Assembly: GCF_018326265.1 (NCBI RefSeq)
Contig: NZ_AP023360.1
Location: 1,032,501-1,096,500, forward strand
From: Catellatospora sp. IY07-71
Lineage (GTDB): Bacteria > Actinomycetota > Actinomycetes > Mycobacteriales > Micromonosporaceae
DNA: 64,000 nucleotides
Direction of reading: 5' to 3'
This document shows, in pieces, positions 9,341-60,690 of this stretch (its first letter is position 1; each line of letters begins with the position of its first letter). The notes below the pieces were generated by a model. It searched no databases and was not told the origin of the DNA. It was given only the letters and a program-made list of their open reading frames with translations. The translations under genes were made by a program, and so were the position numbers.

Positions 9341-9420
9341 AAGAAGGGCACCTTCTACATCGCAAAGCGAGCAGAGATACAGCTCGTCTCGCTGACGCGA
9401 GCCGACGAAGGTGCCCTTCC
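9341..9420. repeat. Family A palindrome, long variant
   Basis: GAAGGGCACCTTC (9343-9355) and its complement (9407-9419) enclose ~51 bases that contain two smaller hairpins. It lies between the convergent beta-lactamase-like and paaN genes and probably terminates both. Confidence 0.85.
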
Positions 9421-13079: not shown

Positions 13080-13127
13080 AAGAAGGGCACCTTCTACTAC
13101 GAAAAGCGATAAGAAGGTGCCCTTCCT
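13080..13127. repeat. Family A palindrome at thrC 3' end
   Basis: GAAGGGCACCTTC (13082-13094) and complement (13113-13125) around an 18-base loop. It abuts the thrC stop codon, so it is well placed as the thrC terminator. Confidence 0.85.
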
Positions 13128-13129
13128 TC

Positions 13130-14410
13130 TCAGCCGAGGAGGCCGGCCTCGCGGGCGGCGCGCAGGGAGGGCTTGACCTGGTAGGTGGGGCCGACCAGGG
13201 CGGCGACGGCGTCCAGGGTCTTGAGGCCCTCGCCGGTGTTGTAGACGACGGTCTCCAGGGTGGGGTCGAGCTTGCCGGAGGCGACCAGCTTCGCGGTCAC
13301 GGCGGTGGTCACGCCGCCCGCGGTCTCCGCGAAGACGCCGGTGGTGCGGGCCAGCAGGCGGATGCCGTCGCGGATCTCGTCGTCGGAGGCGTAGTCCATC
13401 CAGCCGCCGGTGCGACGCACCGCCTCCAGCGCGTACAGGCCGGCGGCCGGGTCGCCGATGTTCAGCGACTTCGCGATGCCGGTCGGCTTCACGGGGGTGA
13501 TCACGTCGGTGCCGGCGTGCAGCGCGGTCGCGATCGGGTTGCAGCCCAGCGACTGCGCGCCGAACACCTTCCAGCCGCCCTCCGGCGCCACCGCCAGACC
13601 CGCGCCGACCAGCTCCTCGAACGCCTTGTCCACCTTGGTCAGCAGCTCGCCGGAGGCCATCGGGATGACCACCTGGGCCGGGATGCGCCAGCCGAGCTGC
13701 TCGGCCACCTCGTAGCCGAGCGTCTTGGAGCCCTCGGCGTAGAACGGCCGCACGTTCACGTTCACGAACGCGGTGTCCTCGAACTCGTCGGTCTCGACCA
13801 GCTCCGAGCAGAGACGGTTCACGTCGTCGTAGGAGCCCTCGATGGCGACCAGGTCGCCGCCGTACACGGCGGTCGTGATGATCTTGCCGGGCTCCAGGTC
13901 CCACGGGATGAACACGATCGACGGGACCCCGGCGCGGGCCGCGTGCGCGGCCACCGAGTTGGCCAGGTTGCCGGTCGAGGCGCAGGCGTAGCGGGTGAAC
14001 CCGAGCGCCTTCGCGGCGGTCAGCGCCACCGACACCACGCGGTCCTTGAAGGAGTGCGTCGGGTTGGCCGAGTCGTCCTTCACCCACAGCGGCGCGCGCA
14101 GGCCGATCTCGGCGGCGAGCGCGTCGGCGCGGACCAGCGGGGTGAAGCCGGGGTCGAGCGACACCCGGTCGGCGGCGCGCTGGCCGGCGGGCAGCAGCCC
14201 GGCGTAACGCCAGATGTTCTTGGGTCCCGCCTCGATCTGCGCGCGGGTCACCGTGGCGAGCGCGTCCGCGTCGTACCAGACCTCGAGCGGGCCGAAACAC
14301 TCGTAACACGCGTGCTGCGCGGCGAGCGGGAAGCGGGCGCCGCAGCCGCGGCACTCCAGCCCGCGAGCGGGCGAGTCGACACCGAGCGGCGAGATGACGG
14401 CAGACGTCAT
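13130..14410 (-). CDS. thrC: Threonine synthase
   Basis: A 426-residue PLP enzyme converting O-phosphohomoserine to threonine. An N-terminal zinc-ribbon-like region (CRGCG at ~20, CYEC at ~35) precedes the fold; the PLP lysine is in PTHSFKDR and the phosphate loop in ACASTGNLANS. This two-Cys-pair form resembles the plant-type, long threonine synthase group. No hom or thrB adjoins it. Its leader is a SAM-I riboswitch, linking it to methionine/SAM status, because O-phosphohomoserine also feeds methionine in some organisms. The start overlaps a hairpin (see the riboswitch). Confidence 0.92.
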   Translation of the reverse strand: MTSAVISPLGVDSPARGLECRGCGARFPLAAQHACYECFGPLEVWYDADALATVTRAQIEAGPKNIWRYAGLLPAGQRAADRVSLDPGFTPLVRADALAAEIGLRAPLWVKDDSANPTHSFKDRVVSVALTAAKALGFTRYACASTGNLANSVAAHAARAGVPSIVFIPWDLEPGKIITTAVYGGDLVAIEGSYDDVNRLCSELVETDEFEDTAFVNVNVRPFYAEGSKTLGYEVAEQLGWRIPAQVVIPMASGELLTKVDKAFEELVGAGLAVAPEGGWKVFGAQSLGCNPIATALHAGTDVITPVKPTGIAKSLNIGDPAAGLYALEAVRRTGGWMDYASDDEIRDGIRLLARTTGVFAETAGGVTTAVTAKLVASGKLDPTLETVVYNTGEGLKTLDAVAALVGPTYQVKPSLRAAREAGLLG

Positions 14411-14427
14411 GAGATGTTTCCTCTCAT
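14409..14427 (-). promoter_or_regulatory. Start-codon hairpin of thrC, exclusive with riboswitch P1
   Basis: On the minus strand ATGAGA pairs with TCTCAT across a 7-base loop; the right arm includes the first two bases of the thrC ATG and the loop includes part of the GAGAGGA ribosome site. Five bases of the left arm are also the 3' strand of riboswitch helix P1, so both helices cannot form together. Confidence 0.6.
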
Positions 14428-14533
14428 CTTCCCGGCGTCACCGATCTGGCCCGCCGGACGGAGTTGGCACCTGCCATCGATGGTGGTTGCCGGAGCGTCA
14501 TCGGGCCGTGTCCCTCAGCTCCTCTGGATGAGG
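14421..14533 (-). promoter_or_regulatory. SAM-I (S-box) riboswitch leading thrC
   Basis: Reading the minus strand: P1 5' strand CTCATC (14532-14527), CAGAGGAGCTGAGGGAC, GGCCCGATGA, CCGGCAACC, hairpin P3 CCATCGATGG, the conserved AGGTGCCAACTCC, a P4 stem CCGGCG/CGCCGG, then P1 3' strand GATGAG (14428-14423). Order and conserved bases match the S-box aptamer closely and not SAM-IV. No U-tract terminator follows; the aptamer ends next to the ribosome site, so control should be on translation. Confidence 0.93.
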
Positions 14534-14619
14534 TATTCAGTTGTGCTTGCAGTTAAGCAGAAGCGCTCTGCCCCGGGCCAGCGTTCTCACCCGATGAGAT
14601 GCACACCTCACTGAGGTTG

Positions 14620-14665
14620 GGAAGGGCACCTTCTTATACGCGAAGCGATAAGAAGGTGCCCTTCC
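14620..14665. repeat. Family A palindrome, perfect 18-bp arms
   Basis: Arms 14620-14637 and 14648-14665 are perfectly complementary around ACGCGAAGCG. It lies between the thrC leader and the 3' end of the next minus-strand gene, whose transcript it would end. Confidence 0.9.
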
Positions 14666-24587: not shown

Positions 24588-25519
24588 CCACCGCTCACGA
24601 GCCCGCCGACGTCGTCGTCTCGATCGACGTCGGCGGCACCGGCATGAAGTGCGCCCTGGTCGGCACGGACCACCGGGTACGCCACACCGAGCGCCACGCC
24701 ACCGGCCGCGAGCGCGGTCCGCAGGCGGTGCTCGGCACCATCCTCGACGTGGCCGCCGGACTGGCCGCGACCGCCGCCGAGCGCGGCTGGCGTCCGGTCG
24801 GCGCGGGCGTGGTCGTGCCCGGCATCGTGAACGAGGCCGACGGCATCGCCACGTACTCCTCGAACATCGGCTTCCGCGACGTGCCGCTGCGCCAGGAGGT
24901 GCACGCGCGCACCGGCCTGCCCACCGCGGTCGGCCACGACGTGCGCGCCAGCGGCCTGGCCGAGGCCCGCCTGGGCGCCGGGCGGGGCCGCAGGCACGTG
25001 CTGGTCGTGCCGATCGGCACCGGCATCGCCGCCGCGCACGTCGTCGACGGCGCCGTGATGGCGGGCGCGCACGGCGCGGCCGGGGAGATCGGCCACATCG
25101 TGGTCCGCCCCGCCGGCCCGCTCTGCGGCTGCGGCCTGCGGGGCTGCCTCGAAGCGGTCGCCTCCGCCAGCGCGGTGGAGCGGCGCTACGCCGAGCTGGT
25201 CGGCACACCGGCCACCGCGGCGCAGGTCGCCGGGCGGCTGGGCACGGACAAGCACGCCGACCGGGTATGGGCCGAAACCGTGGACGCGCTGGCCGACGGC
25301 CTGCTCACCGGCCAGGCCCTCTACGACCCCGAGCTGGTCGTCATCGGCGGCGGCCTGGCCGAGTCCGGCGAGACGCTGCTCGCGCCCCTGCGCGACGCGC
25401 TGGGTAAGAAGGTCACCTTCCACCGCGTGCCCGAGATCGTGCGCGCCGAGCTGGGCGACGAGTCCGGCAGCCTCGGCGCGGCCCTGATCGCCCTGGACCT
25501 GGTCGGGGAGCGGGCATGA
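24584..25519 (+). CDS. ROK-family sugar kinase
   Basis: A 311-residue kinase: ATP-phosphate loop SIDVGGTGMKCALVG, substrate segment GHDVRASGLAEAR, PIGTGIAAA, the ROK His GEIGHIVV, and the zinc cluster CGCGLRGCLE. It phosphorylates a hexose or N-acetylhexosamine at O6. In this operon it would make GalNAc-6-P or GlcNAc-6-P, the NagA substrate. GAGAGGGC precedes the ATG. No transporter gene accompanies it. Confidence 0.9.
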   Translation: MTTAHEPADVVVSIDVGGTGMKCALVGTDHRVRHTERHATGRERGPQAVLGTILDVAAGLAATAAERGWRPVGAGVVVPGIVNEADGIATYSSNIGFRDVPLRQEVHARTGLPTAVGHDVRASGLAEARLGAGRGRRHVLVVPIGTGIAAAHVVDGAVMAGAHGAAGEIGHIVVRPAGPLCGCGLRGCLEAVASASAVERRYAELVGTPATAAQVAGRLGTDKHADRVWAETVDALADGLLTGQALYDPELVVIGGGLAESGETLLAPLRDALGKKVTFHRVPEIVRAELGDESGSLGAALIALDLVGERA

Positions 25520-30423: not shown

Positions 30424-30475
30424 GGAAGGGCACCTCCTTAACGCCCGGTGTACACCAGGGGCACCTTCGCCCCGC
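30424..30475. repeat. Family A repeat, degenerate direct form
   Basis: GGAAGGGCACCTCCTTAACG (30424-30443) and a second half-copy GGGGCACCTTCGCC in the same direction, separated by GGTGTACACC. It resembles the head-to-tail form at 52056-52106. Confidence 0.65.
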
Positions 30476-45028: not shown

Positions 45029-45104
45029 TGGAGCCGACCGCGGGACTTGAACCCGCAACCTTCCGATTACAAGTCGGGTGCGCTACCAATTGCGCCAGGC
45101 CGGC
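45029..45104 (-). tRNA. tRNA-Thr (anticodon TGT)
   Basis: On the minus strand: acceptor GCCGGCC pairing with GGTCGGC, D-arm GCGCAATTGGTAGCGC, anticodon stem-loop CCGA-CTTGTAA-TCGG, T-arm GCGGGTTCAAGTCCCGC, then discriminator T and encoded CCA. The loop reads TGT, for ACA codons. Its 3' end faces the island scar. Confidence 0.96.
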
Positions 45105-45304: not shown

Positions 45305-45367
45305 TTCGGCACTTCACTTTCACTCGGATCGTCCGGCACGTTCCTGCCGGTGGAAGGACACACCCCC

Positions 45368-52055: not shown

Positions 52056-52106
52056 GGAAGGGCACCTTCTTAACGCTTTCCGTAGAGGAAGGGCACCTTC
52101 TTAACG
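52056..52106. repeat. Family A repeat, head-to-tail form
   Basis: GGAAGGGCACCTTCTTAACG occurs twice in the same direction, at 52056-52075 and 52087-52106, instead of as an inverted pair. Confidence 0.85.
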
Positions 52107-60642: not shown

Positions 60643-60690
60643 GGAAGGGCACCTTCTTGTCGTTTTACGTATAGGAAGGTGCCCTTCTTA
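60643..60690. repeat. Family A palindrome after hpd
   Basis: GGAAGGGCACCTTCTT and, on the right, AGGAAGGTGCCCTTCTT around a short AT-rich loop. It begins ten bases after the hpd stop and likely ends its transcript. Confidence 0.87.

Follow-up and report, generated by a model that had tools for sequence, protein, structure and literature searches.

A SAM-I riboswitch in front of a probable metM gene annotated as threonine synthase in Catellatospora, and its likely role as a translational OFF switch

The 64,000-nucleotide stretch of the Catellatospora sp. IY07-71 genome analysed here (the window) contains a SAM-I riboswitch directly in front of a gene which is recognized as a threonine synthase gene by protein family models. 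We consider it probable that this riboswitch turns off the translation of metM, the product of which makes homocysteine. An earlier note on the same DNA had named the gene threonine synthase; the comparative evidence assigns it instead to the MetM group, and the genes annotated as threonine synthase behind SAM-I aptamers in Actinomycetes are most probably metM genes. The SAM switch would then exert ordinary end-product control of methionine synthesis. The positions of all features are summarized in Table 1.

Table 1. Features of the window discussed in the text, with their positions and the basis of each assignment.
Feature	Position	Strand	Basis or remark
MetM-type PLP enzyme gene (metM-type), 426 aa	13130..14410	-	matched by threonine synthase model TIGR00260
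Start codon of the metM-type gene	14410-14408	-	read from the sequence
SAM-I riboswitch aptamer (S-box)	14421..14534	-	RF00162, full model 1-108
P1 5' strand CUCAUC	14527..14532	-	sequence and cmscan alignment
P1 3' strand GAUGAG	14423..14428	-	3' half doubles as the beginning of the predicted Shine-Dalgarno region
Predicted Shine-Dalgarno pairing region UGAGAGGAA	14418..14426	-	4 nt inside P1; RNAduplex against the 16S 3' end
Alternative hairpin across the start codon, AUGAGA/UCUCAU	14409..14427	-	excludes P1
Terminator-like hairpin at the metM end	13110..13132	-	2 overlapping sites, 0.7 expected from shuffles
Dispersed palindrome GGAAGGGCACCTTCTTA	9342-9420, 13081-13126, 14620-14665, 25405-25421, 30424-30440, 52056-52103, 60643-60690
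msiK RNA motif	45309-45364	+	RF01747, 49.6 bits
tRNA	45032-45104	-	RF00005

The SAM-I aptamer

Rfam cmscan identified a single SAM-I match (RF00162) in the window. With 78.3 bits (E 9.9e-17) it lies well above the gathering score of 44.4 bits, and the aptamer already recognized in the earlier note is a genuine member of the SAM-I family, for which binding of SAM is predicted. No second SAM-I match was found in the 8.6 Mb genome among the 150 of 365 first-look candidates that were scored. The two strands of P1 are strikingly uniform. In 40 loci drawn from other families the cmscan matches start with NNCTCATC and finish with GATGAGNN without exception; the P1 5' strand is CTCATC in all of them, and GATGAG is found at the 3' end of all 40, a count which is independent of the patterns used to locate leaders. 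GATGAG is also the P1 3' strand in 119/119 leaders, a number biased toward that motif because these leaders were located by patterns preferring it.

Identity of the gene

The protein encoded by the window gene is identical over 426 residues to a protein of Catellatospora bangladeshensis. It matches the threonine synthase model TIGR00260 with 229.8 bits at a cut-off of 167.1. The host genome encodes a second paralogue, 34% identical to the window gene, which matches the same model with 306.5 bits. TIGR00260 thus accepts both paralogues, because both score over its cut-off. The second paralogue is the canonical ThrC: it, and not the window gene, lies between hom and thrB, among further interspersed genes, and it scores 462 bits against the M. 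tuberculosis threonine synthase 2d1f, compared to 128.5 bits for the window gene.

MetO is reportedly the sulfur carrier for a homocysteine synthase named MetM. According to PMC12172450, MetM was found in Streptomyces by Hasebe et al. 2024 (Appl Environ Microbiol e01247-24), a SAM riboswitch lies upstream of metM in S. albulus, and a cyanobacterial gene resembling S. albulus metO carries the annotation of a sulfur-carrier-family protein. The window gene shares with the metM/metO pair of S. albulus the threonine-synthase-like enzyme and the SAM riboswitch upstream, and a separate canonical ThrC is encoded in its genome, as would be expected for a MetM. The likeness is one of description and genomic context, and the function here is a prediction. 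Unlike S. albulus, the window and its close relatives have no metO or other carrier gene adjoining metM; the next gene after the window metM is an acetyltransferase-like ORF. Three ThiS-family matches are located elsewhere in the host genome.

Neither MetX (best match 26.7 bits) nor MetA was found in the host genome, and the two other genomes of its family in the survey sample (G095 and G196) are without MetX at E<=1e-40. The search for Cys/Met PLP enzymes gave ten matches in the host genome, seven of them marked over cut-off. The strongest lies at C1:572137 (L026), the one at C1:2580750 (L028) is a cystathionine gamma-lyase by NCBIfam, and the one at C1:4067301 (L027) stays below every cut-off shown. 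We do not see that these matches change the MetM reading.

One of the loci examined in the host genome (L025:4581-5255, corresponding to C1 ~2521580-2522254) encodes a ThiS/MoaD-like carrier with a PF02597 match over cut-off. It is one open frame together with a hotdog thioesterase domain and lies behind a glycosylhydrolase-like gene. This carrier is a candidate partner of MetM where metO is missing.

Distribution in Actinomycetes

The comparative survey covered 296 genomes of the class, and those in which the window gene has a relative at E<=1e-60 were counted as MetM genomes. Such a relative is present in 194 genomes and missing in 102. SAM-I was found in 191 of the 194, compared to 11 of the 102 others, in a RF00162 scan run with stricter filters at which some weak matches were lost. 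In 79 of the 80 close loci (L029-L108) the aptamer was identified by cmscan ahead of the gene, the one exception (L074) beginning inside the gene at a contig end. For 40 further loci drawn from the 194 genomes, all of them from other families and spread over genera, an upstream aptamer was seen in every case. The association of gene and switch is already in print: a Streptomyces lividans reannotation (PMC8079986) lists a two-gene unit for 'threonine biosynthesis' that is preceded by a SAM riboswitch.

As in S. albulus, a carrier gene lies downstream in 29 of the 40 other-family loci (L109-L148). It is CysO-like and its product ends in AVAGG or at most two residues from it. The eleven loci without carrier include all five of family f19. 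For the 80 close loci no carrier match was obtained beside metM at E<=1e-3, two of them (L075 and L080) having almost no downstream sequence; the gene appears to have been moved or replaced there.

The distribution of MetX is anti-correlated with that of MetM. At E<=1e-40 it is encoded by 89 of the 194 MetM genomes and by 93 of the 102 others (odds ratio 0.08). A clean replacement of MetX by MetM was rejected as an absolute rule: the same 89 genomes carry both, and in them MetM need not be the only route. Because of the SAM-I association, the carrier synteny, the anti-correlation with MetX and the separate canonical ThrC, we infer that the window gene is probably a metM rather than a threonine synthase gene.

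Layout of the leader

The predicted Shine-Dalgarno (SD) region forms a duplex of -9.7 kcal/mol with the anti-SD sequence that we assumed for the 16S 3' end. This value is the best duplex of a crude RNAduplex scan, run on L029, which is identical to the window in this stretch. The earlier note had mentioned, as an opposite reading of its own proposal, that P1 could cover part of the ribosome site and turn the gene off. The analysis supports this second reading. The best predicted SD overlaps the P1 3' strand in 114 of 116 leaders, in 104 by at least three nucleotides; the remaining three of the 119 leaders were dropped from this set, the pattern having missed their P1 5' strand. The P1 3' strand ends 8-20 nt ahead of the start codon in all 119 leaders, and 10-16 nt ahead in the 79 close ones.

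Judged by its sequence, this layout is the 'direct' translational OFF arrangement of SAM-I, for which Barrick and Breaker 2007 (PMC2258182) describe SD sequences in the 3' side of P1, likewise in Actinobacteria. Two features differ from that description: our leaders are enriched in a hairpin that joins the P1 3' strand to the spacer (see below), and family f20 has a good SD outside P1. In f20 the SD overlapping P1 is rather far from the start (15-16 nt), and a nearly equal one (-9.2 vs -9.7 kcal/mol) lies wholly outside P1, which would therefore leave it uncovered. The direct arrangement is accordingly weak in this family.

The hairpin over the start codon

The earlier note had observed that the 3' strand of P1 can also pair with the region of the start codon, and this was confirmed. 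AUGAGA (14427-14422) pairs with UCUCAU (14414-14409) at -6.0 kcal/mol (p=0.016 against 500 shuffles of the spacer, computed on the letter-identical L029), and this hairpin is also part of the minimum-energy fold predicted for the window leader without constraints. The hairpin and P1 are mutually exclusive, because some bases are common to both.

The earlier note had made conservation of this hairpin one test of its proposal, and in its exact register the hairpin fails that test. Conservation was counted by register and not by covariation; GATGAG is invariant, as are nearly all of the start codons, which makes covariation of the usual kind impossible for a start-codon hairpin. In the exact register all six pairs are present in only 12 of 119 leaders, five in 31, and three or fewer in 56, pairs 1 and 2 (GATGAG motif and start codon) being almost uninformative in these counts. 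A sequestering hairpin of fixed register, as one would expect for an ON riboswitch, is not conserved across the 119 leaders.

A looser hairpin, in which the P1 3' strand or SD region pairs with the spacer in any register, is enriched beyond chance across families. Among 78 distinct leaders it is more stable than expected at p<0.5 in 74 and at p<0.05 in 31, with a median of 0.07. In each of the 17 families the median falls below 0.5 (Fisher 3.7e-4); several families consist of one sequence each. For 79 control genes of the same genome the median is 0.48; 44 of them lie below 0.5, and 5 below 0.05. An automatic ORF filter run on L022-L028 and the window supplied these controls, some of which may have miscalled starts or be metM itself. 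The family medians are lower than these controls (Mann-Whitney p 2e-5). In two leaders (L058 and L113) the hairpin is absent (0.0 kcal/mol), and its loop holds the purine-rich SD-like bases in several families. In a switch whose P1 already overlaps the predicted SD, the enriched hairpin could be a competitor which holds P1 open without SAM, or a repressor.

Folding models and the direction of control

The start codon of the window leader is predicted to be almost equally accessible with P1 forced (0.08) and P1 forbidden (0.09). The most stable predicted fold of this leader lacks P1 and P4, the ensemble energy being -64.1 kcal/mol compared to -57.7 kcal/mol with P1 forced; both values were computed without any SAM term. 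For 116 leaders the global accessibility model gave 10 ON-like, 38 OFF-like and 68 neutral predictions. A crude SD-coupled local model predicted ON for 33, OFF for 72 and neutral behaviour for 11; six Catellatospora loci (L029-L034) came out as OFF by 1.4-2.0 kcal/mol, family f20 as ON in 5/5. Two-state folding was dropped as proof of direction, the global model being mostly neutral and the SD-coupled one mixed by family.

SAM-I switches usually turn genes off when the end product is plentiful. We favour an OFF switch because repression by SAM of a gene that makes homocysteine would be ordinary end-product control, while activation would amount to positive feedback. In the proposed mechanism MetM, working with a sulfur-carrier protein, would convert O-phosphohomoserine into homocysteine. 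At high SAM the ligand would bind the aptamer and fix P1 (CUCAUC:GAUGAG), the 3' strand of which carries or abuts the SD; the ribosome would be kept off, and homocysteine synthesis would fall. At low SAM P1 would open and its 3' strand would become free for the short hairpin with the spacer ahead of the start codon. This hairpin would act as a competitor of P1 rather than as a repressor, with SD-like purines often lying in its loop. Several observations speak against this explanation. The hairpin is built like that of an ON switch, in that P1 frees both start codon and spacer, and it is commoner than in the control genes. The SD-coupled model gives ON for 33 leaders, and P1 would leave a good SD of family f20 uncovered. 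The missing carrier gene beside metM in the window and its close relatives, and the presence of MetX in 89 MetM genomes, weigh against it as well.

Alternative explanations

The earlier note had proposed such an ON switch: without SAM the P1 3' strand would cover the start codon and the spacer and so hide the ribosome site, while SAM would fix P1, open the hairpin and raise translation. The adenine (add) riboswitch of Vibrio vulnificus is comparable. There the ligand turns translation on, and in its absence the ribosome site is likewise covered by downstream pairing of the P1 3' strand. Unlike in add, P1 itself overlaps the predicted SD here, and the gene probably makes the precursor of the ligand. 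The exclusive hairpin with its unusual stability and the ON predictions of the SD-coupled model for some leaders are consistent with the proposal, but the scarcity of the exact register, the two leaders without any hairpin, the near equal accessibility of the window start codon and the global model all argue against it. The physiological reason given for it is also lost once the gene is a probable metM, for which an ON switch would mean positive feedback on methionine synthesis. Plant threonine synthase, the analogy drawn there, is activated by SAM allosterically at the level of the protein and produces threonine. It uses O-phosphohomoserine, as the window enzyme presumably does, and the window gene is related to it in sequence (1e5x, 94.5 bits). 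In its own genome, though, the canonical threonine synthase is the other paralogue and not the window gene, and the analogy falls together with the thrC identity. The proposal therefore keeps its exclusive and enriched hairpin and is otherwise weakened. That the hairpin is a true repressor, with SAM raising the translation of MetM in some or all Actinomycetes, seems unlikely to us. If true, it would be the first SAM-I ON switch, a feed-forward control on the precursor of its own ligand, which could for example restore homocysteine while SAM is consumed.

It is very unlikely that the gene encodes a true second threonine synthase repressed by SAM, for example to balance the flux through the aspartate family. 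The TIGR00260 score over cut-off would fit such an enzyme, as would the name given to the SAM-regulated pair in the S. lividans reannotation and the threonine synthase and threonine deaminase activity of a cyanobacterial MetM homologue reported in PMC12172450. Against it stand the canonical ThrC that the same genome encodes between hom and thrB, the carrier synteny, the SAM-I association and the anti-correlation with MetX. Still another explanation would be that the aptamer is a relic which has lost its regulatory role, as one might suppose because the window leader is predicted to fold most stably without P1 and P4. The retention of SAM-I in nearly all MetM genomes, the invariant P1 strands and the high RF00162 score make this highly improbable.

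Other elements

The terminator-like hairpin at the end of metM is at the same time a copy of the dispersed palindromic repeat GGAAGGGCACCTTCTTA, for which 13 matches with at most three mismatches were found, compared to 0.02 expected by chance. Copies lie on both sides of metM. They possibly represent a palindrome family that is mobile or terminator-like. In two related genomes of family f15 a c-di-AMP riboswitch (RF00379) is located near metM (L119:2856-3012 and L122:355-531).
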